DNA of 64,000 nt from a virus. This document shows, in pieces, positions 3,220-55,381 of the stretch. The stretch covers positions 33,145 to 97,144 of IMG/VR virus record IMGVR_UViG_3300046006_002975, one strand, 5' to 3'. Position 1 is the first letter of the stretch. The number at the start of each line of letters is the position of its first letter. The notes beneath the pieces are model-generated. The model was not told the origin of the DNA. It ran no database searches and saw nothing but the letters and a program-made list of their open reading frames with translations. A program made the position numbers and the translations under genes.

Positions 3220-5730
3220 ATGCCAATTGGTATCGGAACACAAATTAGAAGAACCATAGTTAATGCAGGAACAACAACTATAAGCATTGGCTCAGGGAAT
3301 CAAGCATTTCCATTTGGGGTTAATTCAGTTAAAGTTAATATGAGTGGAAATCCAGGAACAGCTGGCATTGCAGGTAAAGGAGGATCAGCAGGATTAGCTG
3401 GTCCTGGAAGTTGCGGTGGAGCTGGAGGTCCTGGAGGAGCTGCAGGTAAAGGCGGTAAAGGAGCTTGCGGTGGTCCTGGAGGTTGCGGTGGAGCTGGAGG
3501 TACTGCTGGCATTGCAGGTAAAGGCGGTAAAGGAGCTTGCGGTGGTCCAGGAGGCGCAGGAAGTGCCGGAGGAACTGGGGGAGCTGGAGGTACTGCAGGA
3601 GCATATTTAGGGTTAGGGGTGTTAGGTGGTCCTGGAGGTTGCGGTGGAGCTGCAGGTAAAGGTGGAGCTGGCGGAACTGCAGGAACTGCAGGAAAAGCCA
3701 GTTGCGGTCCAGCTGGACTTGGTGGTCCAGGAGGCGGAGCAGGAGGAGGATCTTCATCTATTTCCTGCGGCTCATATTCGCCCACTAAATTTATTTTTAC
3801 TGGAACTGGTGGAGCAGGAGGAGCATCTTGCTGGCACGCAGGAGCAGCAGGTGGAACTGGATCTATATATTCTCCTACTCCAGTAGCTATTTTAGGGGGA
3901 TATGGAGGATTCGCATATGGTGCAACTGGAACTTTATATGGCAGTCCTGGAGAAGTTACTACAGGTAGAGGTGGAACATACGGTAAAGCTACTACTGCAT
4001 GCTCGGTAACTTATTCAAGCGGAAATAGAGGAACTGCTGGGGGAACAACATTAAATTCTAGTTTTTGCTGTTCTAATTCGTCTTATACGAATATTGCTGG
4101 AGCACAAGGCGGGGGCGGAGCTGGCGGAGCAGCATTTCGTTGGAAATCTAATTGTTGGTATTCAACTGGTGGAGGAGGCGGAGGTGGAGCTGGATCTCCA
4201 GGAGGAGCAGGAGTTGCAGGTTCAGTATGGGGCGCAGGAAAAGGCGGAGCTGGTAGCGCGGGAGCTGCTGGCTCCCCTGGAAAATGCGCTCCAAATACTT
4301 TTACTTACGTCTTATGTCCAGTAAATTCAACATATTTTTGCGGAAGTTGCAGGGGTTATGCCGGCGGATTTGGAGTAGCTGGAGCTAATGCTGCTTTAGA
4401 TGGTTCTTGTGCGCCAAACACATGGGCATTAACTTGCCCATCAAATAGCGTTCAATTTTATGGAAATTGTAGAGGTTATGCTGGAACAAAAGGTACAGAA
4501 GGAGGTTGCGGTACTAATGGTATATGCGCTCCAAATTCTTGGCTTGTAACTTGCCCAACAAACGGGCTTACTCATTATGGGTGGTATAAAGGTTTTGTTG
4601 GTACTGCAGGAGCTCCTGGTATCGATGGTTCTTGCGCTACCAGTTGTGCTCCAAATACGTGGACTTCTTGTTCTGGAAATTCTGGAAATGCCGGAACTCC
4701 AGGAACTGATGGAAATCAATCTTCTATTTTTTGTATAATTGCTAAAGGAGGAACTGCTGGTACTGCAACTGCTGGAACTCCAGGAACCGCAGGAACTAAA
4801 GGCACGAAAGGAGCTAAAGGAGCTAAAGGTTATACTGGTAATGCAGGAGCTTGTGGTAATGTAGGGTTTGCAAGTACATATAAAGGCGCAAAAGGGTCTA
4901 AAGGATCTAAAGGTACTGATGGCACCTATGGATTCGCCGGATATAAAGGATTAAAAGGAGTAAAAGGCGCCAAAGGTTACACGGGAAATAATGGATGTAC
5001 CGGAGGTAAAGGATATAAAGGAACAAAAGGCTCTCCTGGTGGACAAGGTGTAACTGGATGTCCAGGTAATGATGGAACAGCTGCTATTGCTGGGGTAGGT
5101 ACTGCAGGAAATTGGGGAGGAGGCGGAGCTGGAGGCTATGCAGGTTCTATATTCAATTCCAAATTATATGTACCAACAGTTTTTGGTAGCGATGGAGCAA
5201 CATATCCAGGAGGCGGAGCTGGAGGTATCGGAAAAGCGTGCGTAGGTCAATCAATGACAGGTTCTCCAGGAACTGCAGGAACTGTTGGCGTTTCAACTCA
5301 AGGAAAAGCTGGAACTGTTGGCGCAACCGGAAAAGATGGTAATGCAGGAACTCCTGGATGTATAGGTTTAAGGGGTAACGTAGGACCTGCAGGAAATCAA
5401 GGAAAAGATGGAAGTGCTGGAACTCCAGGAACTGCTGGAAATGCCGGAACTCCCGGAAAAGATGGAACTCCTGGATCAGTTGGAAGCGTAGGTCTTAAAG
5501 GTGCATCAGGAACTCCAGGTAATACTGGGGCTGATGGAAATTCAGGAAAAAATGGATGCATAGGTCTTAAAGGCGCATCCGGATCTGCAGGATCCCCAGG
5601 AAAAGATGGTAGCGCAAATTGCGGGGGGGCTGCAGATACGCTTAGTTGCGTTAGCGCAAAAATTTCTTCTAGAGTTTCATATCCATATGTTGCTGCGCAA
5701 AAAATTACCGTTTCATGGCCAAGACAATAA
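3220..5730 (+). CDS. Collagen-like, glycine- and cysteine-rich fibre protein
   Basis: 836 residues. After an N-terminal segment of about 40 residues (MPIGIGTQIRRTIVNAG..) the protein is dominated by glycine. Residues about 40-170 carry GG(A/P)GG and GKGGKGACGG runs like the polyglycine-rich tips of some T4-type adhesins. Residues about 520-630 and 690-800 carry true collagen Gly-X-Y triplets, such as GTKGTKGAKGAKGYTG and GTPGTAG. Four copies of a cysteine motif (CAPN[TS][WF]) begin near residues 356, 397, 436 and 476, about 40 residues apart. The C-terminal ~35 residues (ISSRVSYPYVAAQKITVSWP) are non-repetitive and may be a cap or trimerisation unit. Role inferred: host-binding fibre or adhesin. 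Three 2OG oxygenase genes follow downstream and could hydroxylate it. Confidence 0.8.
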   Translation: MPIGIGTQIRRTIVNAGTTTISIGSGNQAFPFGVNSVKVNMSGNPGTAGIAGKGGSAGLAGPGSCGGAGGPGGAAGKGGKGACGGPGGCGGAGGTAGIAGKGGKGACGGPGGAGSAGGTGGAGGTAGAYLGLGVLGGPGGCGGAAGKGGAGGTAGTAGKASCGPAGLGGPGGGAGGGSSSISCGSYSPTKFIFTGTGGAGGASCWHAGAAGGTGSIYSPTPVAILGGYGGFAYGATGTLYGSPGEVTTGRGGTYGKATTACSVTYSSGNRGTAGGTTLNSSFCCSNSSYTNIAGAQGGGGAGGAAFRWKSNCWYSTGGGGGGGAGSPGGAGVAGSVWGAGKGGAGSAGAAGSPGKCAPNTFTYVLCPVNSTYFCGSCRGYAGGFGVAGANAALDGSCAPNTWALTCPSNSVQFYGNCRGYAGTKGTEGGCGTNGICAPNSWLVTCPTNGLTHYGWYKGFVGTAGAPGIDGSCATSCAPNTWTSCSGNSGNAGTPGTDGNQSSIFCIIAKGGTAGTATAGTPGTAGTKGTKGAKGAKGYTGNAGACGNVGFASTYKGAKGSKGSKGTDGTYGFAGYKGLKGVKGAKGYTGNNGCTGGKGYKGTKGSPGGQGVTGCPGNDGTAAIAGVGTAGNWGGGGAGGYAGSIFNSKLYVPTVFGSDGATYPGGGAGGIGKACVGQSMTGSPGTAGTVGVSTQGKAGTVGATGKDGNAGTPGCIGLRGNVGPAGNQGKDGSAGTPGTAGNAGTPGKDGTPGSVGSVGLKGASGTPGNTGADGNSGKNGCIGLKGASGSAGSPGKDGSANCGGAADTLSCVSAKISSRVSYPYVAAQKITVSWPRQ

Positions 5731-10777: not shown

Positions 10778-11215
10778 ATGACATCTAAATTTAATAAAAC
10801 AATGGAGGAAATATTTAATGTTCCTTCATTGGTGAACGAAGAAGAAACTGAATTTGCAGAATTTTTACCTGCAGAACAATCAACTCATGATTTATCTACT
10901 TTATTAGATCACGATTTAAAAACTGATTATGAAAAAACTAGAGAAAGTATTGATTCGTTAATTGCAAAAGGAACTGAAGCTATTGATGATATGTTGGCAA
11001 TTGCTAGGCAATCAGAAAAAGCTCGCGATTTTGAAGTTGCTGGCAATATGATAAAAACTGTTGTTGATGCGTCAAAAGAATTACTTGAAGTTCAAAAGAA
11101 AATGCGCGATATTACAGGTAAAAAAGAAAACGTTACTCAAAATATTAAAAATGCAGTTTTTGTTGGTTCTACTAAAGATTTAATACGATCTATTAAAAAT
11201 GAGAATAATGAATGA
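10778..11215 (+). CDS. 16: Terminase small subunit gp16
   Basis: 145 residues (T4 gp16 is 164). It is acidic and mostly alpha-helical, with a central coiled-coil-like region (LDHDLKTDYEKTRESIDSL, AIDDMLAIARQSEKARDFEV) followed by MIKTVVDASKELLEVQKKMRDI, the form of gp16-type small terminases that oligomerise on DNA and stimulate gp17. The stop overlaps the terL start by ATGA (11212), which couples the two subunits. Position between gp15 and gp17 is exactly that of T4. Confidence 0.85.
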   Translation: MTSKFNKTMEEIFNVPSLVNEEETEFAEFLPAEQSTHDLSTLLDHDLKTDYEKTRESIDSLIAKGTEAIDDMLAIARQSEKARDFEVAGNMIKTVVDASKELLEVQKKMRDITGKKENVTQNIKNAVFVGSTKDLIRSIKNENNE

Positions 11216-12120
11216 TTGATTTTGAGGGTAGCAATAAGTTATATTATAGAGATAATCCTAATCTAAGAAGAGCGGGTATTGAAAATTGGGAATTCGATCA
11301 ACATCAAACAGATGAACTTAGAAAATGTATTAATGACCCAATATACTTTATTCGTAATTATGTAAAAATTATTAATCTTGATGAAGGTCTTGTCTATTTT
11401 GATATGCACGACTATCAAGAAGAAATGGTTCAAGCATTTCATGAAAATAGATTTTCTATTGTAAGGATTGGCCGGCAATCAGGTAAAACCACAACATCTG
11501 TTGGTTATCTTTTATGGTTATCATTATTTACCGAAAATTATAATATTGCTATTACAGCTAATAAAAAATCATTAGCTGTTGAGATTCTTTCTCGATATCA
11601 ATTAGCCTATGAAAATTTACCTATGTGGTTACAACAAGGTATTGTTATATGGAATAAAGGTAGTATTGAATTAGAAAATGGATCAAAAATGTTAGCAGCT
11701 TCTACTGCTGCTAGTTCTGTTCGTGGTGGATCATTTAATCTTGTATTTATGGACGAATTTGCTCACGTTCATAATAACTTAGCCGAAGAATTTTTTACTT
11801 CAACATATCCTGTAATTTCCTCAGGTAAAACAACAAAAATTATTATTGTATCTACTCCTCGTGGTATGAATTTATACTACAAAATGTGGATGGATGCAGT
11901 AAGTAAAAAGAGTGATTATAAAGCTGTTGATATTCATTGGTCTAGAGTTCCAGGGCGCGATGAAAACTGGAAAGAAACTACGATTAGAAATACTTCTGCT
12001 CGTCAGTTTAACCAAGAATTTGCATGCGTTACTGGGGATACAATAGTTGAAATACAGGATGAATTTGGTAATGAACAAAAAATTACAATGCGTAAATTAC
12101 ATTCGCTTATGAATTCTTAG
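11212..12120 (+). CDS. 17: Terminase large subunit gp17, N-terminal half fused to split N-intein
   Basis: 302 residues. Residues 1-271 are the ATPase half of a T4-type large terminase: Walker A GRQSGKTT (87-94), Walker B LVFMDE (177-182) and coupling motif STPRG (214-218). It drives DNA translocation into the prohead. Residues 272-302, starting CVTGDTIVEI after the extein end NQEFA, are the N-terminal splicing block of an intein: catalytic Cys1, then a GDT turn. The frame then stops at 12118-12120. The rest of the intein and of the terminase is encoded 618 bp downstream (12739-13968), with an HNH gene between. This is therefore a fractured gene with an atypically short N-intein, not a degraded terminase. 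The coding density and motifs of both halves are intact. Confidence 0.92.
   Translation: MIDFEGSNKLYYRDNPNLRRAGIENWEFDQHQTDELRKCINDPIYFIRNYVKIINLDEGLVYFDMHDYQEEMVQAFHENRFSIVRIGRQSGKTTTSVGYLLWLSLFTENYNIAITANKKSLAVEILSRYQLAYENLPMWLQQGIVIWNKGSIELENGSKMLAASTAASSVRGGSFNLVFMDEFAHVHNNLAEEFFTSTYPVISSGKTTKIIIVSTPRGMNLYYKMWMDAVSKKSDYKAVDIHWSRVPGRDENWKETTIRNTSARQFNQEFACVTGDTIVEIQDEFGNEQKITMRKLHSLMNS
12025..12117 (+). other. Split N-intein (31 residues) in terL
   Basis: Codes for C-V-T-G-D-T-I-V-E-I (block A, nucleophile Cys1) plus 21 more residues ending at the stop. A 25-37-residue N-intein is the form of atypically split inteins such as that reported in a metagenomic terL (AceL-TerL, recalled from literature). 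Confidence 0.88.
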
Positions 12121-12131
12121 GAATTCATAAT

Positions 12132-12155
12132 ATTATAAATAATTATATTTATAAT
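12132..12155. repeat. Perfect 10-bp inverted repeat containing a late promoter
   Basis: ATTATAAATA at 12132-12141 and its reverse complement at 12146-12155, with ATTA between. The outer pair T12131-A12156 extends the stem to 11 bp. The stem abuts the ribosome site of the HNH gene (GGAG at 12157-12160). It carries TATAAATA on both strands. Confidence 0.85.
12134..12141 (+). promoter_or_regulatory. Late promoter TATAAATA for HNH endonuclease gene
   Basis: Exact late octamer within the left arm of the inverted repeat. Transcription would start about 12147, inside the right arm, so late RNA lacks the left arm and cannot form the hairpin. Confidence 0.65.
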
Positions 12156-12167
12156 AGGAGCATATTT

Positions 12168-12764
12168 ATGTCAAAACATAGAAAAATATGGGAAGAGCAT
12201 TATGGTAGTATTCCAAAAGATTATGAAGGAAGAACATATGAAATACACCATATAGACGGTAATAGGAATAATAATGATATTACCAATTTGAAATGCGTAT
12301 CAATATGCGAGCATTTTAATATTCATCAAGCGCAAGAGGAATTCGGAGCTTGCGCTATGATAATGAAACGTATGGATATGTCAACAGAACAAATTTCTAA
12401 TATACAAAAAGGAATTAAAAGACCTGGAATTGGAGGAGTAAAAAAAGGAACTATTCCATGGAATAAAGGTAAAAAAATATTTGTTTCCGAAGATTTAAAA
12501 ATAAAACGTTCTAAAAATAGCACTGGGGAATTAAATTCTAAAGCAAAATTAAAAGAAAACCAAGTTATAGAAATATTAGAATTATATTTTAGTAGACCAA
12601 AATTAGAGTCAGAAGGAATAACACAAAGAAACGGTAGAGTTGATTCATATGAATGGAGTTTTTCTAAGTTTTATGCAAATACTTATGAATTAACTCCAGC
12701 AGCTTTAATGCGATTATTAACCAAAAAAAGTTGGAAACATGTTTGGGAAAAATACAAAATATAA
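12168..12764 (+). CDS. HNH homing endonuclease between the terL halves
   Basis: 198 residues with its own AGGAG site 7 bases before the ATG. The HNH core is IHHIDGNRNNNDITNL near residues 25-40, followed by a histidine-containing helix (CEHFNIHQAQEEFG). A NUMOD3-like DNA-contact motif (GVKKGTIPWNKGKK) lies near residue 90. The family makes site-specific breaks in unoccupied alleles and is copied by recombination. The gene sits exactly between N-intein and C-intein segments of terL and its last 26 bases overlap the start of the downstream ORF. It therefore appears to be the free-standing mobility partner of the split intein. Independent expression is indicated by the late promoter at 12134. 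Confidence 0.85.
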   Translation: MSKHRKIWEEHYGSIPKDYEGRTYEIHHIDGNRNNNDITNLKCVSICEHFNIHQAQEEFGACAMIMKRMDMSTEQISNIQKGIKRPGIGGVKKGTIPWNKGKKIFVSEDLKIKRSKNSTGELNSKAKLKENQVIEILELYFSRPKLESEGITQRNGRVDSYEWSFSKFYANTYELTPAALMRLLTKKSWKHVWEKYKI

Positions 12765-13065
12765 AATAAAAACTATAAATGGATGGGAAAAGTTTAGAGG
12801 TGTAAATAAATTACATAAAAAACGAACCGTTCAGATTATAACACAAAATAACTGTTTTCTTGATTGTACTATAGATCATAAAATAAAAACTCTTGATGGT
12901 TATAAAGAAATTAGCGAATTATCTGATTTAGATTTTATAGAGACTATTCATGGATTTTCTAAAATTGATTTTATTTCTGAAAATTTTGAATTAGAAGAAG
13001 TTTTTGATGTCATAGATGCGGGAAACGATAAATGTTATTATACTAATGGAATTTTATCGCATAAT
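12739..13065 (+). other. Split C-intein (109 residues)
   Basis: Runs from MFGKNTKYKI to the terminal His-Asn. Together with the N-intein it forms a 140-residue mini-intein without an internal endonuclease domain. Cys1, TxxH, penultimate His, terminal Asn and Cys+1 are all present, so splicing competence is expected. Confidence 0.88.
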
Positions 13066-13968
13066 TGCGAATTTTTAGGTTCTACAAATACATTAATCGA
13101 TGGATCAAAATTACAAACTCTTGTTGCAGTAGATCCATTAGATACTGATGATGAAATATTTGCTGGAATAACAATTCCAAATGAAATGGATGTATTTATT
13201 CCTCCAGTTAAAGAATCATTTGATGATGAAACTAAAAAACAAATAGATAAAGACCATATTTATGCAATGACTGTTGACGTTTCAGAGGGGAAAAACTTAG
13301 ATTATGCTGCATTTTCCATTTTTGATGTATCAACAATTCCATATACACAAGTAGCTACATATAGAAATAATCAATTACATCCAATGTTATTTCCAGATAT
13401 TATTAAAATGGCTGGAGAATATTATAATAATGCATATGTATTAATTGAGGTTAATAATAATCCAACAGTAGCAGATACTTTATTTCAAGATTTAGAATAT
13501 GAAAATGTATTAAAAGTTTATGCAGGAAACAAAAAAGCTCAACAAATAAGCGAGAACGGTAAAGCAACACAAAATGGCGTAAATATGAGCCCATTAGTCA
13601 AACGTGTTGGCTGTACCACATTAAAGACTTTAATTGAAACTGATAAATTACGAATTAATTCCAGCGAAACTATATATGAATTAACTCGATTTATTGCAAC
13701 AAATAACTCATTTGCAGCTGAAGAAGGAGCTAATGATGATTTAGCGATGACTTTGGTTATTTTTGCTTGGTTATCAACTCAAAAATTATTTATAGAATTA
13801 TCTTCTACAGATATCCGTAAAAGATTACAAATAGAAAATAATTATATTAAAGAAGATGATATTGACGTTCCACCTATGCCGCAATTTAGTAATCCATTAA
13901 TGGATAGATTTACATTAGAAGATGGCGATTTATGGGAAGTTGTTGAACCAGCAGGATTTTATTATTAA
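12739..13968 (+). CDS. 17: Split C-intein fused to C-terminal (nuclease) half of terminase gp17
   Basis: 409 residues. Residues 1-109 are the C-intein: block B-like T44-I-D-H47 and the C-terminal splicing block VFDVIDAGNDKCYYTNGILS followed by H108-N109. The next residue is Cys110, the +1 nucleophile. Residues 110-409 are the terminase nuclease half, with acidic catalytic residues in AMTVDVSEG, LIEVNNN and NDDLAMTLVIF (Asp 342, Glu 399 and Asp 495/496 of a spliced protein). The start at 12739 overlaps the HNH gene by 26 bases and has only a weak ribosome site, so translation may be coupled. As I recall it, the MF..NT start resembles the AceL-TerL C-intein. Splicing joins NQEFA to CEFLGS and gives a 571-residue TerL (T4 gp17 is 610). 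Confidence 0.9.
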   Translation: MFGKNTKYKIKTINGWEKFRGVNKLHKKRTVQIITQNNCFLDCTIDHKIKTLDGYKEISELSDLDFIETIHGFSKIDFISENFELEEVFDVIDAGNDKCYYTNGILSHNCEFLGSTNTLIDGSKLQTLVAVDPLDTDDEIFAGITIPNEMDVFIPPVKESFDDETKKQIDKDHIYAMTVDVSEGKNLDYAAFSIFDVSTIPYTQVATYRNNQLHPMLFPDIIKMAGEYYNNAYVLIEVNNNPTVADTLFQDLEYENVLKVYAGNKKAQQISENGKATQNGVNMSPLVKRVGCTTLKTLIETDKLRINSSETIYELTRFIATNNSFAAEEGANDDLAMTLVIFAWLSTQKLFIELSSTDIRKRLQIENNYIKEDDIDVPPMPQFSNPLMDRFTLEDGDLWEVVEPAGFYY

Positions 13969-13985: not shown

Positions 13986-13993
13986 TATAAATA
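13986..13993 (+). promoter_or_regulatory. Late promoter TATAAATA for tail sheath gene
   Basis: Exact octamer in the 72-bp gap before gene 18, 48 bp upstream of its ATG. Confidence 0.75.
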
Positions 13994-23084: not shown

Positions 23085-23807
23085 ATGCCCAGCAAAAATA
23101 TTTATACAAATAAAAATAAATTTACCTTAAACTATTATGTTTATGCATACATAAGAACAATCGATTCAATAACAGCAAAAAGCGGCACGCCATATTATAT
23201 AGGAAAAGGTATAAAAAATAGAGCATTTAAAAAACACGGAAAAGTTCCTGTTCCTAAAGACAAAAATTATATAGTTTTTGTTGAAACTAATTTAACAGAA
23301 ATCGGTGCATTAGCTATAGAACGAAAATTAATTAAATGGTATGGAAGAAAAGATTTAGGAACAGGAATTCTATTAAATAGAACTGATGGCGGAGACGGGA
23401 TATCAAATCCATCAATATGTATTCGTAAAAAAATATCTATAGGGCAAAAAAATAGAATAATATCTGACAGCGAAAAACAAAATACAGCAAAAAGAATGAT
23501 CGGTAATACATATGGAACTGGGAAAAATTTAAAAAACACTAATGCAGCAGGAAAAAGGTCAAAACAAGCTATAGAAAATTCAGCTTTAGCGCATAGAAAA
23601 ATTTATAATATAATTTCTCCTAATGGAAAGAATTATTTTATTTTAGGGTTAAAACAAATATGTAAGAAATTAAATTTAAATTATAGTGGTATGTTAAATG
23701 TATCAAGAGGAATAAAATTACACCAAAATGGATGGAAATGTATTAAGGTTGGGAAGATACAAGATTTCCCCAACCTTAATTTAACTTCTCTAGAAGAAAT
23801 CTTCTAA
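23085..23807 (+). CDS. GIY-YIG homing endonuclease
   Basis: 240 residues. The N-terminal domain has a GIY-YIG variant: YYVYAYIR, then [17 protein letters not shown], and E in [13 protein letters not shown] followed by [10 protein letters not shown]. The C-terminal part ([20 protein letters not shown]) is a NUMOD-like helix-turn-helix DNA-binding module, as in Seg and I-Tev type enzymes. It is encoded on the plus strand between two minus-strand modification genes and its end overlaps the TET gene by 18 bases. It has only a weak ribosome site (AGAGAA). It probably invaded this intergenic site as a free-standing mobile gene. Confidence 0.85.
23742..23780. terminator. 12-bp inverted repeat near convergent gene ends
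   Basis: ATTAAGGTTGGG (23742-23753) pairs with CCCAACCTTAAT (23769-23780). It lies in the last codons of the GIY-YIG gene, just beyond the end of the convergent TET gene. It could end both transcripts, but there is no clear T-tract. Confidence 0.5.
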
Positions 23808-33790: not shown

Positions 33791-33865
33791 GCCTTTTTAG
33801 TATAATGGCTATTACAGTTGACTTGTAATCTTCAGATCTCAGTTCGATTCTGGGAAGAGGCTCCA
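33791..33865 (+). tRNA. tRNA-Thr (TGT), anticodon stem weakened
   Basis: Acceptor GCCTTTT/AAGAGGC with encoded CCA, T-arm CTCAG-TTCGATT-CTGGG and anticodon loop CTTGTAA (TGT, reads ACA). The anticodon stem GTTGA/TCTTC has two adjacent T-T mismatches, and the D stem has only three pairs. Confidence 0.8.
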
Positions 33866-33873
33866 AATTATTA

Positions 33874-33950
33874 CTCCCATTAGCTCAGTCTGGTAGAGCG
33901 ATCCGTTTGGGGCGGATAGGTCGGCAGTTCGAATCTGTCATGGGAGACCA
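33874..33950 (+). tRNA. tRNA-Pro (TGG)
   Basis: Complete cloverleaf: acceptor CTCCCAT/ATGGGAG, D stem GCTC/GAGC, anticodon stem ATCCG/CGGAT, loop TTTGGGG (TGG, reads CCA), T-arm GGCAG-TTCGAAT-CTGTC, CCA encoded. Confidence 0.93.
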
Positions 33951-33972
33951 AATGTTTATTGAGAATTATATT

Positions 33973-34584
33973 ATGATTATAGGTTTACTTGGTTTTATTG
34001 GTTCCGGAAAAGGAACTGCTGGCGATATTTTAGTAGAAAATGATTTTACTGCTTTATCCTTTGCTGGTTCGTTAAAGGATGCAGTATCTTCTATTTTTGG
34101 TTGGGATAGAGCTCTATTAGAAGGTGATACTGAAGAATCGCGAGTTTTTCGTGAAACTGTTGATAATTTTTGGTCAGTTAAATTTGGTAAATCTATAACG
34201 CCTAGATATATTTTACAGTATTTTGGTACAGAAGTTTGTAGAAATAATTTACTTGATAGTATTTGGGTTGATTCTCTAGAAAGAAAAATTCAACAGTATG
34301 ATAATGTAGTTATTACTGATGTTAGATTTAAAAATGAAATTAGTTTTTTAAGGTCTATTGGGGCTAAATTTATACATATTGACAGAAAAGAAACGCGACC
34401 TGAATGGTATGGATTTCTTGACTCAGTAGATAGACCTGTATTTGTAGCTTATGCTGAAGCTAGAGATATTCATAAATCTGAATATGAATGGTATAGTAAT
34501 CCTCATATTGACTATATAATTCAAAATAATGGAACTCTACAAGAATTAGAGCTAAAAATATTAGATGTAATTGTAAATAATTAA
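33973..34584 (+). CDS. Deoxynucleoside monophosphate kinase (gp1-like)
   Basis: 203 residues from the ATG at 33973. An ATG at 33952 is possible, but its ribosome site lies in the tRNA-Pro 3' end; starts further upstream lie inside the tRNA. The P-loop is GFIGSGKGT near residues 6-14. The block SITPRYILQYFGTEVCRNNL, then IWVDSLERKI and VVITDVRFKNE, matches T4 gp1 dNMP kinases, which phosphorylate dNMPs for phage DNA. If phage DNA carries modified cytosine, as the TET gene suggests, the modification is made after polymerisation, so no special specificity is required. Confidence 0.85.
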   Translation: MIIGLLGFIGSGKGTAGDILVENDFTALSFAGSLKDAVSSIFGWDRALLEGDTEESRVFRETVDNFWSVKFGKSITPRYILQYFGTEVCRNNLLDSIWVDSLERKIQQYDNVVITDVRFKNEISFLRSIGAKFIHIDRKETRPEWYGFLDSVDRPVFVAYAEARDIHKSEYEWYSNPHIDYIIQNNGTLQELELKILDVIVNN

Positions 34585-34586
34585 AT

Positions 34587-35258
34587 ATGATTTCTAAATA
34601 TCTAACACAAATACAAAATGACGGGTTACAAATAGATGTTGTTTATGATATTGGCGCTCATCAAGGTAGTTGGTCTAGTTATTTAAAATCCAACGTTTTA
34701 CCTGTTAGCGATTTTTATTTATTTGAAGCTGACTCAATACATCAGTCGTCTTTAGAAGAATTAGGTTTTCCATATTTTATTGGAGTATTAAGTAATCCTG
34801 GGAGAAAATTTGTTGAGTTTTATAACACAAATTCAACTGATTGTAGCACTGGTAGTTCTTATTATAAAGAAAATACTGTTTATTATGATAATTTTTCTGC
34901 AGTTAAATTTCCTTGTACAACGTTAGAATCACTTATAATTGAATATGGTTTACCAATACCTAATCTACTGAAAATAGATACGCAAGGTTCTGAATTAGAT
35001 ATTTTGCGCGGCGTTGAATCATATATAGATAATATTGATTTGATATATTTAGAATGCCCTATAATTAAATATAACATTCATGCTCCATCTATTCAAGATT
35101 ATATAGATTATATGAAAGAAAAAGGATTTATTCCTACTGAAGTAATGGAAATCCATAGATATGAACATGTATTATTACAAATAGATATTATGTTTATTAA
35201 TTGCGCAACAAAAGAATGGCTTTATGGTCCAACTGAATTTAGTCGACCTTTAGTTTAA
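34587..35258 (+). CDS. FkbM-family methyltransferase
   Basis: 223 residues. The SAM-binding start is VVYDIGAHQGSWSSYL, followed by DFYLFEADSIHQSSL, then TTLESLI and LLKIDTQGSELDILRGV, the classic FkbM block order. The family mostly O-methylates sugars or small molecules. In this genome it could cap glycans made by the island at 47.5-56.3 kb. It begins 2 bases after the dNMP kinase stop and is followed by tRNA genes. Confidence 0.88.
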   Translation: MISKYLTQIQNDGLQIDVVYDIGAHQGSWSSYLKSNVLPVSDFYLFEADSIHQSSLEELGFPYFIGVLSNPGRKFVEFYNTNSTDCSTGSSYYKENTVYYDNFSAVKFPCTTLESLIIEYGLPIPNLLKIDTQGSELDILRGVESYIDNIDLIYLECPIIKYNIHAPSIQDYIDYMKEKGFIPTEVMEIHRYEHVLLQIDIMFINCATKEWLYGPTEFSRPLV

Positions 35259-35266
35259 AAGATAAT

Positions 35267-35341
35267 TCCCTAGTAGCTCAGTGGTAGAGCTGACGGCTGT
35301 TAACCGTCCGGTCGGTGGTTCGAACCCATCCTAGGGAGCCA
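35267..35341 (+). tRNA. tRNA-Asn (GTT)
   Basis: Acceptor TCCCTAG/CTAGGGA, anticodon loop CTGTTAA (GTT), T-loop TTCGAAC, CCA encoded. All stems pair well. Confidence 0.93.
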
Positions 35342-35347
35342 AATAAG

Positions 35348-35442
35348 ACCCATTAGGTGTGACTATGACGGAATTGGTAGACGTCCTCGATTGTGATTCG
35401 AGATTTTGTGGGTTCAAGTCCCACTAGTCACCCCTAATGGGT
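35348..35442 (+). repeat. 10-bp inverted repeat flanking tRNA-His
   Basis: ACCCATTAGG (35348-35357) and CCTAATGGGT (35433-35442) extend the acceptor stem of tRNA-His by ten pairs beyond a small bulge. It may guide processing or act with the following TTTAAAAAAT as a stop signal. Confidence 0.8.
35359..35432 (+). tRNA. tRNA-His (GTG)
   Basis: Acceptor GTGACTA/TAGTCAC, anticodon stem CTCGA/TCGAG with loop TTGTGAT (GTG), T-arm GTGGG-TTCAAGT-CCCAC. Discriminator C as in bacterial tRNA-His. CCA is not encoded (CCT follows), and the base at -1 is T rather than the usual G. Confidence 0.85.
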
Positions 35443-35455
35443 TTAAAAAATAATT

Positions 35456-35530
35456 GTCGCTATCGTCTATCGGTTAGGACACAAGATTTTCATTCTTGTA
35501 AGCGGGGTTCGATTCCCCGTAGCGACGCCA
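35456..35530 (+). tRNA. tRNA-Glu (TTC)
   Basis: Acceptor GTCGCTA/TAGCGAC, anticodon stem CAAGA/TCTTG with loop TTTTCAT (TTC, reads GAA), T-arm CGGGG-TTCGATT-CCCCG, CCA encoded. Confidence 0.93.
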
Positions 35531-35535
35531 ATATT

Positions 35536-35612
35536 GGGTAGGTAGTTTAATTGGATAAAACATGTGCCTCCAAAACACAAAGATGAGAGTTCAAATCTTT
35601 CTCTGCCCGCCA
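35536..35612 (+). tRNA. tRNA-Trp (CCA)
   Basis: Acceptor GGGTAGG/TCTGCCC, anticodon loop CTCCAAA (CCA, reads TGG), T-arm GAGAG-TTCAAAT-CTTTC, CCA encoded. The pair next to the loop is C-A, so the anticodon stem has four good pairs. Confidence 0.87.
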
Positions 35613-35634
35613 ATTAATTTAATACGAGGAAGTT

Positions 35635-35817
35635 ATGAAAACTTTATTTTTGATTATTTTATGTTTATTTGTAACAGGTTGTGCTAGTTCTGGTGATTTA
35701 GCTAAATTACAGGATGATCATGCTGCTTTAACTGCAAAGGTTGAATCTTTGACAAATTCAAATAAACAGTGTGATAAAAAATTAGATAATTTCTTCAAAA
35801 AAGTTCAGAAGAAATAA
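35635..35817 (+). CDS. Small lipoprotein inside tRNA cluster
   Basis: 60 residues with an AGGAAG ribosome site. A lipoprotein signal peptide is clear: MKTLFLIILCLFVTGC with lipobox VTGC and acylated Cys16. The mature part (about 45 residues) is a short charged helix (LAKLQDDHAALTAKVESL) that could form a coiled coil like Lpp. It would be anchored to a membrane of a Gram-negative host. Possible roles are an outer-membrane spanin, superinfection exclusion or a host-lipoprotein mimic. No inner-membrane spanin partner is seen nearby. The gene is wedged between tRNA-Trp and tRNA-Met. Confidence 0.85.
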   Translation: MKTLFLIILCLFVTGCASSGDLAKLQDDHAALTAKVESLTNSNKQCDKKLDNFFKKVQKK

Positions 35818-35822
35818 TATAT

Positions 35823-35898
35823 GCCCCTTTAGCTCAATGGTTAGAGCGTCCGACTCATAATCGGTTGGTTCTAGGTTCAAGTCCTAGGAGGGGCACCA
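35823..35898 (+). tRNA. tRNA-Met or tRNA-Ile (CAT)
   Basis: Acceptor GCCCCTT/GAGGGGC, D stem GCTC/GAGC, anticodon loop CTCATAA (CAT), T-loop TTCAAGT, CCA encoded. The paired first acceptor base excludes an initiator. CAT may be elongator Met, or Ile if lysidine-modified. Confidence 0.9.
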
Positions 35899-35904
35899 AA
35901 TATT

Positions 35905-35978
35905 GCGGGATTGGTATATAGGTTGTGCCTTAGCCTTCCAAGCTAATGAAACGAGTTCGACTCTCGTATCCCGCTCCA
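35905..35978 (+). tRNA. tRNA-Gly (TCC)
   Basis: Acceptor GCGGGAT/ATCCCGC, anticodon stem TTAGC/GCTAA with loop CTTCCAA (TCC, reads GGA), T-loop TTCGACT, CCA encoded. GGA is abundant in the glycine-rich fibre gene. Confidence 0.93.
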
Positions 35979-46138: not shown

Positions 46139-47492
46139 AGAATTTACGAGAAAAGTATTACCTTTTTTAAGGGCAGATTATTTTAATGATAGAAATGAAC
46201 GAACAATTTTTAACGAGATTAGTTCGTTCATTACAAATTATGGAAATATTCCAACATATGAAGCTCTTATTATTCAGTTAAATGAAAAAACAGTTTCCGA
46301 AGAAGAACATAAAGAAACTCTTACATTATTAAATGAATTGCATGAAGCTAAATCTGAAACTGTAGATTTGGAATGGTTAGTTGATAAAACGGAAACTTTT
46401 TGTCAAGACCAAGCAATCTTTAATGCTGTTAGAGAATCTATTACAATTCTCGATGGAAAACATAAAGATTTATCAAAAGGAAGTATTCCTACGTTATTAT
46501 CTGAAGCATTATCTGTTTCTTTTGACTCAAGCGTTGGTCATGATTATTTGGGTGATGCTGATAGCCGTTATGAATATTATCATAGAACTGAAGAAAAAGT
46601 TCCTTTCGGGCTAAACTATTTTAATCTTATAACAAATGGTGGATTACCAAAGAAAACTTTAAATGTTATCTTAGCTCCACCTCATGGCGGTAAAAGTTTA
46701 ATGATGTGTAACTTTGCAGCTGATTTTCAAACAGCAGGTAAAAATGTTTTATACATAACTTGTGAAATGGCTGAAGAAGAAATTGCAAAACGTATTGATG
46801 CTAATTTGCTTAGAATATCTATGGATGATTTAATGCAAATGGATAAATCAACTTTTGATAAAAAGATTAATTATGTTAAATCAAAAACTGTTGGTAAGTT
46901 ATTTGTCAAAGAATACCCAACAGCTGCAGCTAATGTAAATCATTTTAGAACTTTATTAAATGAATTGCGTTTAAAAAAGAATTTCGTTCCAGATGTAGTG
47001 TTTATTGATTATTTAAATATTTGTGCTAGTTCTAGAATGAAGATGTCTGGTAGTATCAACACTTATACATATATTCAGGCTATTGCGCAAGAATTGCGTG
47101 GCTTTGCTCAGGAGTTTAGTATTCCTGTTGTGACAGCAACTCAGACAACTAGAAGCGGATCTCAAAGTAGTGATGTTGATATGAGTGATGTATCTGAATC
47201 ATTTGGTGTTCCTGCTATTGCTGATTTTATGTGTGCAATCATTAACAGCGAAGAATTATATGATTTAAATCAAATGATGATTAAACAGTTAAAAAATCGT
47301 TATAGAGATTTAAATTTAAATAAACGATTTGTTGTTGGTGTTGATCGAGCTAAAATGAAATTGTTTGATGTTGAACAATCAGCTCAGGAAGGTATTACTG
47401 ATGCTGGAAGCATGGATCCATCTGAGTCGTATAAATCTATGCAAAAACAAAATAAATTTGAAAAGAAATCATTTGATGGGTTTAAAGTATGA
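46095..47492 (+). CDS. 41: Replicative helicase gp41 (TTG start)
   Basis: 465 residues (T4 gp41 is 475). DnaB-type: Walker A APPHGGKS (194-201), Walker B VVFIDYLNI, and QAIAQELRGFAQEFSIPVV with the following TQTTRSG. No ATG is available; TTG at 46095 follows AGGAG by six bases, and the next residues (TLILKNLHYSEEF) align well with the T4 start (recollection). It unwinds duplex at the fork and pairs with gp61 primase encoded at 61896. The ATGA overlap with a glycosyltransferase marks the start of the glycan island. Confidence 0.94.
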   Translation: MNLNTLILKNLHYSEEFTRKVLPFLRADYFNDRNERTIFNEISSFITNYGNIPTYEALIIQLNEKTVSEEEHKETLTLLNELHEAKSETVDLEWLVDKTETFCQDQAIFNAVRESITILDGKHKDLSKGSIPTLLSEALSVSFDSSVGHDYLGDADSRYEYYHRTEEKVPFGLNYFNLITNGGLPKKTLNVILAPPHGGKSLMMCNFAADFQTAGKNVLYITCEMAEEEIAKRIDANLLRISMDDLMQMDKSTFDKKINYVKSKTVGKLFVKEYPTAAANVNHFRTLLNELRLKKNFVPDVVFIDYLNICASSRMKMSGSINTYTYIQAIAQELRGFAQEFSIPVVTATQTTRSGSQSSDVDMSDVSESFGVPAIADFMCAIINSEELYDLNQMMIKQLKNRYRDLNLNKRFVVGVDRAKMKLFDVEQSAQEGITDAGSMDPSESYKSMQKQNKFEKKSFDGFKV

Positions 47493-48208
47493 CAAAAAGT
47501 GCAGTAGTAATAATTCCAACAACAGGAGCTGATACTCTTATAGAAACAATTGAGAGTGTTGCCAAACAAACATATGATAATGTTACTGCCCTTATTGTGG
47601 TTGATGGGAAACAATTTGCATCTAAAGTAAGGAAACTGCTTTTAGGTAAAGGTTTTAGTATTCCTTTGCGAGTTGAATATCTAGATGAAAATGTTGGAGC
47701 TAACGGCTTTTATGGTCATAGGATTTATGCAGCTTATTCTCATTTAGTTAATGAGGATTATATTTTCTTTCTTGATCAAGATAATTTGTTTGAGTCAAAT
47801 CATATTGAAACTATGATTGCTAAATTAGAATCAACTAATTCTGATTGGGCGTATAGTTTGCGTAATATTTGCGATAAAAATGGAAATTATATTTATCAAG
47901 ATAATTGCGAAAGTTTAGGTAAATGGGAAGCATGGACTAATTGTTATCATATAGATACTAATTGTTATTGTTTTTCAAATAAAGTTGCTGTTACTATTGC
48001 AGGAGCTTGGCACGGCGGATGGGGTCAAGATAGAATTGTATTCCAGGCACTAAAACAATATTTTCCTAATTTTGAATGTTCTAACTATTATACAGTTAAT
48101 TATAGGCTTGATGGTAACGAGGGATCTGTTACTAAAGATTTTTTTGAGCATGGAAATAAATTAATGAGCGAAAAATATAATAATAAATTTCCATGGAGTA
48201 AAATATGA
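47489..48208 (+). CDS. Family 2-type glycosyltransferase
   Basis: 239 residues, coupled to gp41 by ATGA. SAVVIIPTTGADTLIETIES begins the GT-A fold; DNVTALIVVDG, YIFFLDQDNLFE with the DxD motif (DQD) and HGGWGQDRIVF near residue 170 follow. This is the layout of inverting GT2 enzymes that add sugars to glycan chains. It opens a block of eleven sugar-related genes. The acceptor is unknown. Confidence 0.82.
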   Translation: MTKSAVVIIPTTGADTLIETIESVAKQTYDNVTALIVVDGKQFASKVRKLLLGKGFSIPLRVEYLDENVGANGFYGHRIYAAYSHLVNEDYIFFLDQDNLFESNHIETMIAKLESTNSDWAYSLRNICDKNGNYIYQDNCESLGKWEAWTNCYHIDTNCYCFSNKVAVTIAGAWHGGWGQDRIVFQALKQYFPNFECSNYYTVNYRLDGNEGSVTKDFFEHGNKLMSEKYNNKFPWSKI

Positions 48209-48858
48209 AAATTGATATACATACATTATATTGGAATAATGGAGAATATTTAATTAAATCGCAAAAAAAAGTAATGGATCATTTTCAAATACCAGTAATA
48301 TATCATAATTTAGATGGTTATCCACACGGTAAATGGATGGATGAGGTTCTTGAAAACAGTACGTCAGATATTGTTGGATTTTTTGATAATGATTGCGTCC
48401 CTTTAAATAGACAAATTGTTGATTATGCAATAAATTATGTTGCAACAAATAAAACGTTTATTGGTACAGCTCAAGTATCAAATCATATTGCGCCATATTC
48501 GCATATATTTGCTGCTCCGTGTTTTTTCTTTATTTGTCGAGAAGCATGGATACAGCTTGGTAAACCTTCTTTTTCTGAAAATACAAGATCAGATGTTGCT
48601 GAAGAAGTTTCTTATAGAGCTGAAGAACATAAATTATCATATAAAGCTTTATATCCAACTCATTTTGAGCGAGAATCAACAGAAGGTATTTGGAAATTAA
48701 GTAACTATGGATATTTTGGTATAGGAACTGTTTTTGCTAATTCCATCTATCATTTATATCAAGGTCGTTTTAAACAAAATGCAGATTTATTTGCTAAACG
48801 TTGCCAAGAAATAATTGATGGTACGTTTACTACAAACGGTATGCGTAATTCAATTTAG
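48205..48858 (+). CDS. Glycosyltransferase-like protein (GT-A)
   Basis: 217 residues, coupled by ATGA. IDIHTLYWNNGEYLIKSQKK, HNLDGYPHGKWMDEVLEN and DIVGFFDNDCVPL (DND as the metal motif) point to a GT-A transferase, though it is short. A conserved-looking PCFFFICREAWIQLGKPSFSE segment follows. It lacks a membrane segment. Substrate unknown. Confidence 0.7.
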   Translation: MKIDIHTLYWNNGEYLIKSQKKVMDHFQIPVIYHNLDGYPHGKWMDEVLENSTSDIVGFFDNDCVPLNRQIVDYAINYVATNKTFIGTAQVSNHIAPYSHIFAAPCFFFICREAWIQLGKPSFSENTRSDVAEEVSYRAEEHKLSYKALYPTHFERESTEGIWKLSNYGYFGIGTVFANSIYHLYQGRFKQNADLFAKRCQEIIDGTFTTNGMRNSI

Positions 48859-48867
48859 GAAATAATT

Positions 48868-49680
48868 ATGAGTAAAATTAGTATAGTAACTGCTTTTTTT
48901 GATATTGGTAGGGGAGAATGGACTCCAGATAAAGGATTGCCTCATTATTTACAAAGATCTACTGATGTTTATATCAAAAGGTTTTCTTATTTGTTGAACT
49001 TAGATACAGATATTACTGTTTATACATCTCCTGACCTTGTTAATACGTTGACAGAATTAAGCGTTGGTAAATTAGCAAAAACAACTATAGTTGGAATTGA
49101 TTTATCTGAATTTGATAGTATAAAAGAACGTATTGTAGATATTCAGCAAAACGAATTATTTAAAAATAGTATTTCTCCGAATCAGCTAAAAAATCCTGAA
49201 TATTGGAATTCAGATTATGTATTGGTTACTAACTTAAAAGCATATTTCGTCGATTTATCTATTAAAAATGGATTATCTAAAAATGATATGGTTGCTTGGA
49301 TTGATTTTGGTTATTGTAGAAGCGAACAAAATATACCACAAAGTAATTCCTGGGAATATAATTTTGACCCAACAAAACTTCATTTATTTGCATATAAGCA
49401 ATATGATGGTAAAAATATATTAGAAATAATTGCAACAAATGATGTATACATACTTGGAGCTAAAGTTGTTGCGCATAAATCTATGTGGTCAATTATGGCA
49501 CAATTAATGAAATCTTCTCAAGATAAATTATTTGAAAATAATTTTGTTGATGACGATCAAGGTTTATGGTTAATTTCCAGTTTAATGGAACCCTATTTAT
49601 TTGAGTTGCATACAATACCAGATCATCAATTAGGTGGAGATCCTTTTGTTTTGTTTAACGAGTTTAACGATACTGTATGA
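48868..49680 (+). CDS. HtrL/YibB-like glycan synthesis protein
   Basis: 270 residues, with its own site. ISIVTAFFDIGRGEWTPDKG at the start, YIKRFSYLLNLDTDITVYTS, and MVAWIDFGYCRSEQN recall the HtrL/YibB family found in LPS and capsule clusters. These are thought to be glycosyltransferases. The DDDQGLWLISSL segment near the end would be the acidic catalytic part. Stop and next start overlap (ATGA). Confidence 0.78.
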   Translation: MSKISIVTAFFDIGRGEWTPDKGLPHYLQRSTDVYIKRFSYLLNLDTDITVYTSPDLVNTLTELSVGKLAKTTIVGIDLSEFDSIKERIVDIQQNELFKNSISPNQLKNPEYWNSDYVLVTNLKAYFVDLSIKNGLSKNDMVAWIDFGYCRSEQNIPQSNSWEYNFDPTKLHLFAYKQYDGKNILEIIATNDVYILGAKVVAHKSMWSIMAQLMKSSQDKLFENNFVDDDQGLWLISSLMEPYLFELHTIPDHQLGGDPFVLFNEFNDTV

Positions 49681-51059
49681 ATAAATTAATAATTTTTGAT
49701 TTAGATGGCGTTTTAATAGATTCTAGGAATTTACATTATTATGCTTTAAATGAAGCATTAAGTCATATTGATGATAGCTATACTATAAGTATAGAAGAGC
49801 ATTTAAGCGTTTATGATGGATTAAATACTACAAAAAAGCTTAAATTATTAACTCAAACTAAAGGTTTAGAACCTAAACATTATGATACTATTTGGGAAAA
49901 TAAACAAAATGCTACATTTAAATATATAAAAGAATTTCAGGAACACTTTTTATTACAAAAGATATTTGCTAAAATAAAAAATAGAGGTTATAAAATTGCT
50001 GTTGCTAGTAACTCAATAAGAGAAACTGTAAAATTATCTTTATTGAGTATCGGTGTATTAGAATTTGTTGACTATTACGTTAGTAATGAAGATGTAACTA
50101 GAACTAAACCATATCCAGAAATGTATTGGAAATGTATGATAGCTATGAATGCTCTTCCTAAAAATACAATAATTGTTGAAGATAGTCATATTGGTAGACA
50201 AGGAGCTATAGATTCTGGCGCGCATTTATTAGCAGTTGATGATTCTCATGAAGTTAATTCAGAACATATATTAGATAGGATTTATAATATGATGGATAAA
50301 ATCGAAGGAGTTGGTAAAAAGCCTTTGCCATGGAAAGATACAAAATTAACAGTATTAATTCCAATGGCTGGCGCGGGTAGTAGGTTTTCTGCTGCAGGTT
50401 ATACTTTCCCTAAACCTTTAATTGAGGTTAGAGGAAAACCTATGATTCAAGTTGTTGTTGAAAACTTGAATATAGAAGCTAATTATGTATTTTTAGTACA
50501 AAAAGAACACTATGAGCAATACAATTTAAAATATTTGTTAAATTTAATTGCGCCAAATTGTGAAATTGTATTGGTTGATGGTATTACTGAAGGTGCTGCT
50601 TGTACAACTTTATTAGCTAAAAAGTATATTGATAATGATAATCCATTGGTTATGACTAATTCTGATCAATTTATTGAATGGAATTCTAATGAATGTTTAT
50701 ATGCATTTTCAGCTGATGCTATTGATGGAGGTATATTAACATTTAATGCTACACACCCTAAATGGTCATATGCTAAAGTCGATGAAACTGGTTTTGTTTC
50801 TGAAGTTGCAGAAAAGAAAGTTATATCTGATCAAGCAACAGTAGGAGTTTATTATTGGAAAAAAGGTTCTGATTATGTTAAATATGCTGAACAAATGATT
50901 GAAAAGGATATACGAACTAATAATGAGTTTTATGTATGTCCAGTATTTAATGAAGCTATTGCTGATGGTAAAAAAATACGAGTAAAAACTGTTGAAAAAA
51001 TGTGGGGTATTGGTACTCCTGAAGATTTAAATTATTTTCTAGATAATCATAAAGAATGA
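49677..51059 (+). CDS. Fusion: HAD phosphatase + sugar nucleotidyltransferase
   Basis: 460 residues with two domains. Residues 1-210 are a HAD hydrolase: FDLDGVLID (nucleophile Asp), AVASNSIRETVKLSL, and TKPYPEMYWK then VEDSHIGRQGA. Residues 222-460 are a nucleotidyltransferase of the sugar-1-phosphate type: LIPMAGAGSRFSAAGYTFPK, PLIEVRGKPMIQVV, TNSDQF as the acidic site, and the MWGIGTPEDLNYFL end. A phosphorylated sugar (or related compound) could be both dephosphorylated and nucleotide-activated by one protein. Overlaps on both sides (ATGA) place it mid-operon. Confidence 0.88.
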   Translation: MNKLIIFDLDGVLIDSRNLHYYALNEALSHIDDSYTISIEEHLSVYDGLNTTKKLKLLTQTKGLEPKHYDTIWENKQNATFKYIKEFQEHFLLQKIFAKIKNRGYKIAVASNSIRETVKLSLLSIGVLEFVDYYVSNEDVTRTKPYPEMYWKCMIAMNALPKNTIIVEDSHIGRQGAIDSGAHLLAVDDSHEVNSEHILDRIYNMMDKIEGVGKKPLPWKDTKLTVLIPMAGAGSRFSAAGYTFPKPLIEVRGKPMIQVVVENLNIEANYVFLVQKEHYEQYNLKYLLNLIAPNCEIVLVDGITEGAACTTLLAKKYIDNDNPLVMTNSDQFIEWNSNECLYAFSADAIDGGILTFNATHPKWSYAKVDETGFVSEVAEKKVISDQATVGVYYWKKGSDYVKYAEQMIEKDIRTNNEFYVCPVFNEAIADGKKIRVKTVEKMWGIGTPEDLNYFLDNHKE

Positions 51060-51859
51060 AAAACATTATATTTTTTATAACTCATAAAACATTAGGCGTT
51101 GAACACGCTACAGCTTGTTTTTATAGTTTATCTAAACAAGAAAATGTTTCTGGTAAATTTGATGCCTTATATATTTACAATACGCACCAAGATGAATTAT
51201 CAAATGATACGTTAATAGATTTATACGAAAAATTTAATTTAAATACTTTTTTTGCTGAAATTAAATTATTTGATTATAATCCTAATACCGAAAAGGCATT
51301 AGGTGCAGATATATCAACTATTAGAAATTACGTTACGGAAAATTATGTTCAAGAAGATAGAGTTTTATTATTAAAATCTGATTGCCTTTTATCTAAAAAT
51401 TATTTTAGCGATATTCTTTCTTTACCTGTAGATATTCCCGCATATTTTGTTGCTCCATTTATTTGTGCAAAAGAAAGAATAACTGATACTGAAATATTTG
51501 AATATATTTCTAGAGATTCGTATATTCAGTCAGATGATATAACGTTTTTTGTGGAAGATCAAATAGGTAGTAGTAATAATGATTTTAATAACCGTCCTGA
51601 AGTAAATATAACTGATAATAGCATAAAATTTACTTCTTGTTATGTTATTAGAGATTTTTCTTGTCATTTCCTTTCTGTTGGATTATTTGATTTCGTACAT
51701 ATAGCTGTTCAGAGTTGGGGTGGGGTTAATTTTTCTTCTTTATTTAAGTATTTTATTGGAACTAATCGAAGTTTTGTAGTTCACAAATATCATAGTATTG
51801 TTAGTGAAAACAGAGTTACAGATAGAGAAGGTCCAGTTGTTTCTTGGTTAAAGAGTTAG
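51056..51859 (+). CDS. Probable glycosyltransferase
   Basis: 267 residues, coupled by ATGA. The start NIIFFITHKTLGVEHATACF and DALYIYNTHQDELSN, together with RVLLLKSDCLLSKNYF (KSD in the place of DxD), look like a GT-A enzyme. The C-terminal part (GLFDFVHIAVQSWGGVNFSS) has no motif I can name. It is included as a glycosyltransferase mainly because of fold pattern and location. Confidence 0.6.
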   Translation: MKNIIFFITHKTLGVEHATACFYSLSKQENVSGKFDALYIYNTHQDELSNDTLIDLYEKFNLNTFFAEIKLFDYNPNTEKALGADISTIRNYVTENYVQEDRVLLLKSDCLLSKNYFSDILSLPVDIPAYFVAPFICAKERITDTEIFEYISRDSYIQSDDITFFVEDQIGSSNNDFNNRPEVNITDNSIKFTSCYVIRDFSCHFLSVGLFDFVHIAVQSWGGVNFSSLFKYFIGTNRSFVVHKYHSIVSENRVTDREGPVVSWLKS

Positions 51860-51862
51860 TGT

Positions 51863-53900: not shown

Positions 53901-53901
53901 T

Positions 53902-54348: not shown

Positions 54349-54349
54349 A

Positions 54350-55318: not shown

Positions 55319-55324
55319 AAGTGC

Positions 55325-55353
55325 TTGACAATATAGATGTTTTATATTATAAT
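55325..55353 (+). promoter_or_regulatory. Consensus sigma70 promoter for NAD-dependent epimerase gene
   Basis: TGC-TTGACA (55325-55330), 17-bp spacer, TATAAT (55348-55353): a perfect consensus. ATAGATG (55333-55339) and CATCTAT (55358-55364) form an inverted repeat over the -10 and start. Confidence 0.92.
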
Positions 55354-55381
55354 AGGGCATCTATTTAAAAAAAGGTGATAT

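Follow-up and report, generated by a model that had tools for sequence, protein, structure and literature searches.

A probably mobile split intein with a separate homing endonuclease in the terminase gene of a T4-type phage

Genes fractured at split inteins, with an endonuclease gene in between, were reportedly described by Dassa et al. in 2009. Both atypically split inteins of the large terminase subunit (TerL) and genes broken in two around an endonuclease gene are already known (PMC11766414, PMC7891396). AceL-TerL (25 + 104 residues) and GOS-TerL (37 + 115 residues) are atypically split inteins with known trans-splicing, and Cat is an engineered consensus of both (PMC11766414). A GIY-YIG gene is located between the split intein halves of AceL NrdHF (PMC7891396). 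Collaborative homing in phages involves a group I intron as splicing element and a nuclease gene outside the intron (PMC10448857). The T4 enzyme I-TevI is autorepressed at an operator which lies over its own late promoter and is identical to the homing site in 15/20 positions; T4 RNA hairpins mask ribosome sites on long transcripts (PMC2988022). The locus described here is a terL gene broken at a split intein, with an HNH endonuclease gene between the halves. It was found in a stretch of 64,000 nt (the window, to which all coordinates refer) of the 97,144-bp IMG/VR record IMGVR_UViG_3300046006_002975, a virus of bacteria. The whole is best explained, with a probability of roughly 80%, by a mobile split intein that has a separate nuclease and occupies an essential terminase gene of the T4 type.

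Three co-oriented open reading frames (ORFs) form the locus, and all features given are on the plus strand. The first ORF (11212-12120, 302 residues) encodes the TerL N-extein of 271 residues (11212..12024, Pfam Terminase_6N 1e-21), which carries Walker A GRQSGKTT and Walker B VFMDEFA, matches the terminase large subunit phrog_5989 (9.5e-66) and ends with NQEFA. It continues into an N-intein (IntN) of 31 residues, CVTGDTIVEIQDEFGNEQKITMRKLHSLMNS (12025..12117; Cys1 codon 12025-12027, stop codon 12118-12120). The free-standing HNH homing endonuclease gene follows (12168..12764, 198 residues). Its 3' end overlaps by 26 nt (12739..12764) with the third ORF (12739-13968, 409 residues), comprising a C-intein (IntC) of 109 residues with TIDH as block B and ILSHN as end (12739..13065), and the TerL C-extein of 300 residues beginning with CEFLGS (13066..13968, Cys+1 codon 13066-13068, Pfam Terminase_6C 3.8e-13). 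The original prediction of a fractured terL with a free-standing HNH gene between the halves was exact to the base in all coordinates, and Pfam recovered Terminase_6N, HNH_3 and Terminase_6C. It had taken the C half for the nuclease half. The RNase H-like nuclease is indeed present, but the C-extein contains the last part of the ATPase domain as well. Because Terminase_6C begins at about residue 68 of the C-extein, the TerL break is placed inside the ATPase domain and not at the ATPase/nuclease boundary.

Both intein halves are homologous to Cat. The single match of the window IntN in the PDB was CatN (6dsl chain A, E 0.0097), that of the window IntC was CatC (6dsl chain B, E 3.7e-6), and a profile from six relatives matched CatC at 6.5e-23. 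Pfam did not recognise the window IntC alone. The 31 and 109 residues beside the break are thus intein-related, in agreement with the atypically split, AceL-type intein that had been proposed. Cys1, block-B His47, block-F Asp90, His108, Asn109 and Cys+1 are invariant in the aligned relatives, so that the class 1 residues (Cys or Ser at position 1, block-B TxxH, C-terminal HN, Cys+1) are complete. The lengths of 31 and 109 residues lie in the ranges of the family homologous to CatN and CatC (IntN about 25-37, IntC about 104-115 residues). The break falls at the split intein with an endonuclease ORF between the halves, as is characteristic of fractured genes. Since sequence, split position and catalytic residues all agree, the window intein is assigned to the AceL/GOS/Cat family of atypically split TerL inteins. 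An unsplit mini-intein occupies the same site in five non-redundant relatives (L049, L050, L078, L101, L104). A Hint fold was predicted for these contiguous relatives (predicted local distance difference test, pLDDT, 89.4); the model had 67 PDB matches with E<0.001, of which the best 50 were inteins or related Hint domains. The lowest-confidence loop of this model, residues 36-39, adjoins the split point of the other loci.

Close relatives from IMG/VR comprised occupied alleles (L002-L008) and empty alleles (L009-L029). The empty gene mostly reads NQEFG|CEFLG. The near-isogenic phages L009 and L017, with about 1% flank difference from the window, have an uninterrupted terL; within 100 bases of the site only two changes were found, at -1 and -2 (GGT to GCA, Gly to Ala). 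L006 and L007 carry the same insert inside a much more diverged phage. Their insert differs from that of the window at 3/1041 positions versus 34/800 in the flanking sequences (400 bp each side, p 5e-10), and the synonymous divergence (dS) between L006/L007 and the window is 0.009 in the HNH gene versus 0.247 in the exteins. A third lineage, L008, showed 3/418 differences in the intein versus 57/600 in the flanks (p 1e-10), with IntN and IntC aligned separately; a whole-insert alignment gave 43/464, inflated by a 577-bp deletion. The first flanking differences were located at -31/+15 in L006 and at -25/+10 in L008. Because the insert is near-identical while the exteins have diverged, with flank differences starting at most 31 bases away, the whole 1,041-bp insert must have moved horizontally as one unit, extein to extein. 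The occupied L006 and the empty L016 share the sample code 3300009151.

The ratio of nonsynonymous to synonymous divergence (omega) of the exteins was 0.02-0.06 against occupied and empty alleles alike, and that of IntC was 0.07-0.29 in relatives. The fractured terL is very probably functional, because its exteins are under strong purifying selection. Restoration of TerL by trans-splicing, as originally proposed, gains support from this selection, the Cat homology and the break inside the ATPase domain; no second TerL-N was found in the 97,144-bp record, which is an incomplete genome. A TerL joined NQEFA-CEFLGS is very likely the splicing product. L008 has lost most of its HNH gene through a deletion between two copies of CTTATGAATT (window 12106-12115 and 12692-12701), and its TerL halves are still in separate frames. 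Eight non-redundant loci besides L008 are likewise split and have no space for a nuclease. The fracture, as judged from these alleles, outlives the nuclease.

The catalytic domain of the HNH protein comprises residues 3-46 (Pfam HNH_3 2e-14). An alignment of 14 HNH proteins showed no variation at residues H27, H28, D30, N35, N40, H49 and H53, and the motif is intact in the window protein, as in homing endonucleases of the HNH_3/I-TevIII type. Its N-terminal part is I-TevIII-like, and the protein matches the intron-like DNA endonuclease phrog_12324 (9.9e-27). A search of the PDB with an AlphaFold model of the HNH protein gave nothing significant, the best match being I-HmuI (E 0.96). Relatives carry at the same site HNH_3, GIY-YIG or SegE-like GIY-YIG, or DUF559/MTES_1575-type (restriction-like) nucleases, or none. 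Most of these nucleases are free-standing; they are fused to IntN in VP-1 and to IntC in Va1, L052 and L054. In L052 (3437-5113), an HNH_3 nuclease is in-frame with IntC and TerL-C, and the usual targeting domain is absent.

This targeting domain occupies about residues 94-190 of the window protein (12447..12737) and is common to HNH and GIY-YIG proteins. A hidden Markov model (HMM) built from the last ~98 residues of six HNH enzymes matched the same-site GIY-YIG enzymes with E values (Z=1000) of 1e-36 to 4.6e-8. It also matched proteins of L046 and L123, both without a recognised nuclease domain, and found no good match among the 15 other nucleases at the site. Viral contigs were scanned for the targeting domain and the HNH family irrespective of the neighbourhood, applying four closer targeting domains, as eight divergent ones gave too few conserved columns. 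Split TerL genes accounted for 67 of the 71 loci carrying the domain. The remaining four (L166, L167, L169, L170) were weak matches in GIY-YIG proteins upstream of an SbcD-like gene. All HNH proteins with the domain were located in TerL (24/24), versus 3/53 of those without it (p 5e-17). The 71 loci and the HNH counts include redundant contigs, and the query was derived from TerL copies, so that the proportion is valid for detectable relatives. In the simplest reading of these matches, the targeting domain recognises the terL site and the catalytic domains have been exchanged. Taken together, the sequences suggest that the split intein is carried by a separate nuclease which can be exchanged.

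A copy of the presumed target site is present at the promoter of the nuclease gene. The window sequence TATGAATTCTTAGG (12108..12121) overlaps the IntN stop and resembles the C-extein start TGCGAATTTTTAGG; it takes rank 2 when the 13,967 positions of the window stretch are compared on both strands. For 44 non-redundant loci that have the targeting domain (<90% identity), such mimics were ranked against every position on both strands of each locus; an earlier shuffle test on short regions was low-powered. The copy was detected in 35/44 loci, mostly at fixed offsets of -2 or +4 from the IntN stop, and in 25 of them no other sequence on the two strands of the locus matched better, the true site excluded. 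In many loci it reads TGTGAGTTTTTTGG and itself supplies the IntN stop codon (offset -2). The copy is rare elsewhere: 1/15 loci with other nucleases, 0/9 nuclease-free loci and 0/5 loci with a contiguous intein. Its first codon follows the class of the +1 codon, TGY or ACN, with TG in 0/8 ACN loci versus 23/27 TGY loci (p 2e-5). The T4-type late promoter TATAAATA was found within -15..+70 of the IntN stop in 32/44 loci; at most ~0.02 are expected per stretch. At the sequence level, a homing-site-like candidate operator is therefore present at the late promoter of the endonuclease.

In the window, two perfect 10-bp inverted repeats, the first of them spanning the IntN stop, precede the Shine-Dalgarno sequence AGGAG of the HNH gene (12156..12160). 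The first, TTATGAATTC/GAATTCATAA (12107..12130), has its loop at 12117-12120. The second, ATTATAAATA/TATTTATAAT (12132..12155), abuts the Shine-Dalgarno sequence and contains the late promoter of the HNH gene (12134..12141) in its 5' arm. The predicted fold of 12100-12185 is unusually stable (z = -5.19; 0/200 shuffles equally stable). The Shine-Dalgarno sequence is only partly paired in it, and the hairpins in relatives are weaker. The overlap of the HNH gene and IntC spans 1 to 28 nt in most relatives. Translation of the TerL C half probably occurs through coupling to the HNH gene and under the same control, because the IntC start codon lies within that gene. The proposal that packaging depends on both transcripts was not supported: with three co-oriented ORFs and this start codon position, one transcript is possible, and translational coupling of IntC-TerL-C to HNH appears more likely than independent transcripts.

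The proposed mechanism joins these elements. IntN would dock onto IntC, and the exteins would be joined by trans-splicing through Cys1 and Cys+1, which would render the insertion harmless. The HNH protein would bind the uninterrupted terL with its C-terminal domain and cut it near NQEF|CEFLG. Repair of the cut terL would then copy in the HNH gene together with both intein halves. Cleavage of empty terL followed by repair-driven insertion is likely, and the homing data consist of sequence comparisons, namely the empty alleles and the horizontal exchange of the insert. Self-repression of the nuclease would act through the C-extein copy next to its late promoter, which would serve as operator. 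In the window phage, the hairpins would close the ribosome site of the HNH gene on long read-through transcripts in an I-TevI-like manner. The TerL-C half, its start codon being within the HNH gene, would fall under the same late control. Autorepression and late-only translation are moderately likely by analogy with I-TevI. The broadest version of the proposal is evenly balanced between right and wrong. It holds that one terL-aimed DNA-binding domain, joined to unrelated catalytic domains (HNH, GIY-YIG), drives the split intein through T4-like phages, while the duplicated first 14-26 C-extein bases end IntN and form the nuclease operator and late promoter. If it is true, homing, the dose of the nuclease and the expression of half an essential protein are all tied to one short sequence.

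Other explanations of the fractured gene have been considered. The TerL halves might assemble non-covalently without splicing, with the intein fragments as inert tails; a ribonucleotide reductase that functions although a homing endonuclease gene splits it, cited in PMC10448857, is a precedent. However, the break lies inside an intein in which every splicing residue is invariant, IntC is under selection (omega 0.07-0.29), both halves match a trans-splicing pair and the break falls inside the ATPase domain, which makes such an assembly very improbable. HNH genes are frequently intronic and the terL of ICP1 is RNA-spliced (PMC10448857), so the HNH region might be an intron removed at the RNA level from a TerL with an ordinary contiguous intein. 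No Rfam intron was found at the site or elsewhere in the window, where only tRNAs pass the gathering thresholds, and a conserved group I or group II intron RNA is, by this search, absent from the TerL locus. The intron was rejected for lack of an Rfam match. The contiguous mini-intein relatives contain no HNH gene, and L008, with most of it deleted, still has two frames; removal as RNA is hardly credible. An HNH gene that homes alone into the DNA of an otherwise immobile intein would be compatible with the contiguous and nuclease-free inteins at the same site. The exchanged unit nevertheless spans extein to extein according to the flank differences of L006 and L008, the nearest relatives lack the intein as well, and the site copy resembles extein DNA and not intein DNA. 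Homing of the HNH gene by itself is unlikely.

The operator step has a rival of its own, which concerns no other part of the mechanism. The mimic may be a relic of an old target duplication, kept for the IntN stop codon and the late promoter without any autorepression. The supply of the stop codon in many loci (offset -2) fits such a relic, as does the weak own-locus similarity within the +1 class. A route for a C-extein copy to a position upstream of the nuclease, via a one-sided event, is seen in L225 (2400-3700), where TerL-N runs into ~36 residues of C-extein, followed by a truncated HNH gene, by IntC and once more by the C-extein; this arrangement is either a one-sided integration or an assembly chimera. 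Against a relic stand the copy being the best locus match in 25 divergent loci, its tie to the targeting domain and the published precedent of the I-TevI operator (PMC2988022). The relic is a possible, though somewhat doubtful, account. Several results weigh against the mobile, self-regulating element preferred here. Among loci of one +1 class, the mimic shows no clearly greater similarity to its own extein than to others (p 0.06, 0.09), a result as compatible with a relic or common descent as with an operator. A detectable mimic is absent in 9/44 loci. The strong hairpin is clear in the window clade only, most hairpins of relatives being unremarkable. Some copies no longer home, as L046 and L123 have no recognised nuclease domain and L008 has lost most of the HNH gene. 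The locus statistics treat related phages as independent, and combined p-values are overstated.

Further inteins occur in the TerL of relatives. L008 (1-3412) contains TerL inteins at three sites: Walker A (GK|T), Walker B (GGSFN|CVVMDEF) and QEF|CEF. The second one, at Walker B, is split, and a GIY-YIG domain is fused to its IntN; the TerL of L008 would be made of at least three, perhaps four, pieces. L030 (2277-6062) harbors two inteins. A restriction-like nuclease is fused to the C-intein at Walker A, while the ORF within the QEF|CEF intein contains the targeting domain without a recognised nuclease domain. The TerL-C ORFs of Campylobacter phage F341 (L036) and Salicola phage SCTP-2 (L034) start with a C-intein at another site, in F341 the Walker B region. 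No TerL-N was found in the retrieved stretch of either phage, and the matching half may lie at a distant place in the genome. Fractured TerL split inteins were also found in the isolated phages Providencia PSTRCR_127 (L033), Serratia 92A1 (L035), Vibrio Va1 (L037) and Vibrio VP-1 (L038), where they are annotated as terminase or hypothetical proteins only.

The neighbourhood in the window consists of T4-type morphogenesis genes, namely small terminase, tail sheath, portal and major capsid. T4-type late promoters TATAAATA precede several of them, e.g. at 13986..13993 for the next gene, tail sheath (phrog_23); the HNH gene carries an extra one. Two further probable homing endonuclease genes are present. 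One (23085-23807) lies two genes past the major capsid gene, the other (63133-63930) near the window end (homing endonuclease phrog_655, 2.8e-40). A collagen-like protein of 836 residues with abundant Gly-X-X repeats (3220-5730) is encoded amid structural genes. Eight tRNA genes (Thr, Pro, Asn, His, Glu, Trp, Met, Gly) are located at 33791-35978. A long one-strand run of glycosyltransferase-like, sugar-nucleotide and methyltransferase-like genes (47489-56287, translations judged by eye) sits between replication genes and other phage genes.

The locus bears on two questions: what places the break of some inteins after ~30 residues, at a distance from the usual endonuclease position, and by which route split inteins that lack an endonuclease domain are disseminated. 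Together with its relatives it supplies the missing states, namely alleles that are empty, contiguous, split with one of several nucleases, or split after loss of the nuclease; near-isogenic pairs are among them. The Cat family, which is used for protein labelling, gains dozens of new split inteins with a short IntN, and the arrangement is testable in the isolated Serratia phage 92A1, Providencia phage PSTRCR_127 and the two Vibrio phages, VP-1 and Va1. In the literature searched, the reach of which did not include Dassa et al. 2009 and the AceL/GOS discovery papers, no description was found of the targeting module common to the nucleases, of the site copy at their promoter or of the series of empty, occupied and nuclease-lost TerL alleles.

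The locus resembles AceL-TerL, GOS-TerL and Cat in the TerL host gene and in the lengths of IntN (25-37 residues) and IntC (104-115 residues); AceL and Cat share Cys1 and Cys+1 with the window intein. The junction NQEFA|CEFLGS is different. Those inteins have been studied as proteins, whereas here the locus, the empty alleles, the nuclease gene and the control region are seen in phage genomes. In AceL NrdHF, split intein halves likewise flank a free-standing homing endonuclease gene. That intein is split at the usual endonuclease position (98 + 48 residues), while the window intein breaks after 31 residues, and its intervening gene is of the GIY-YIG type, while the window gene is an HNH gene, the types being interchangeable among relatives. 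As in collaborative homing, a separate splicing element would owe its mobility to a free-standing nuclease; there, the element is a group I intron with the nuclease gene outside, here a split intein with the HNH gene between its halves. I-TevI-like enzymes of group I introns are alike in the HNH or GIY-YIG type, the late promoter, the homing-site-like candidate operator and, as far as predicted in the window clade, the hairpin over the ribosome site. They reside in group I introns, while the window HNH gene resides in a split intein.

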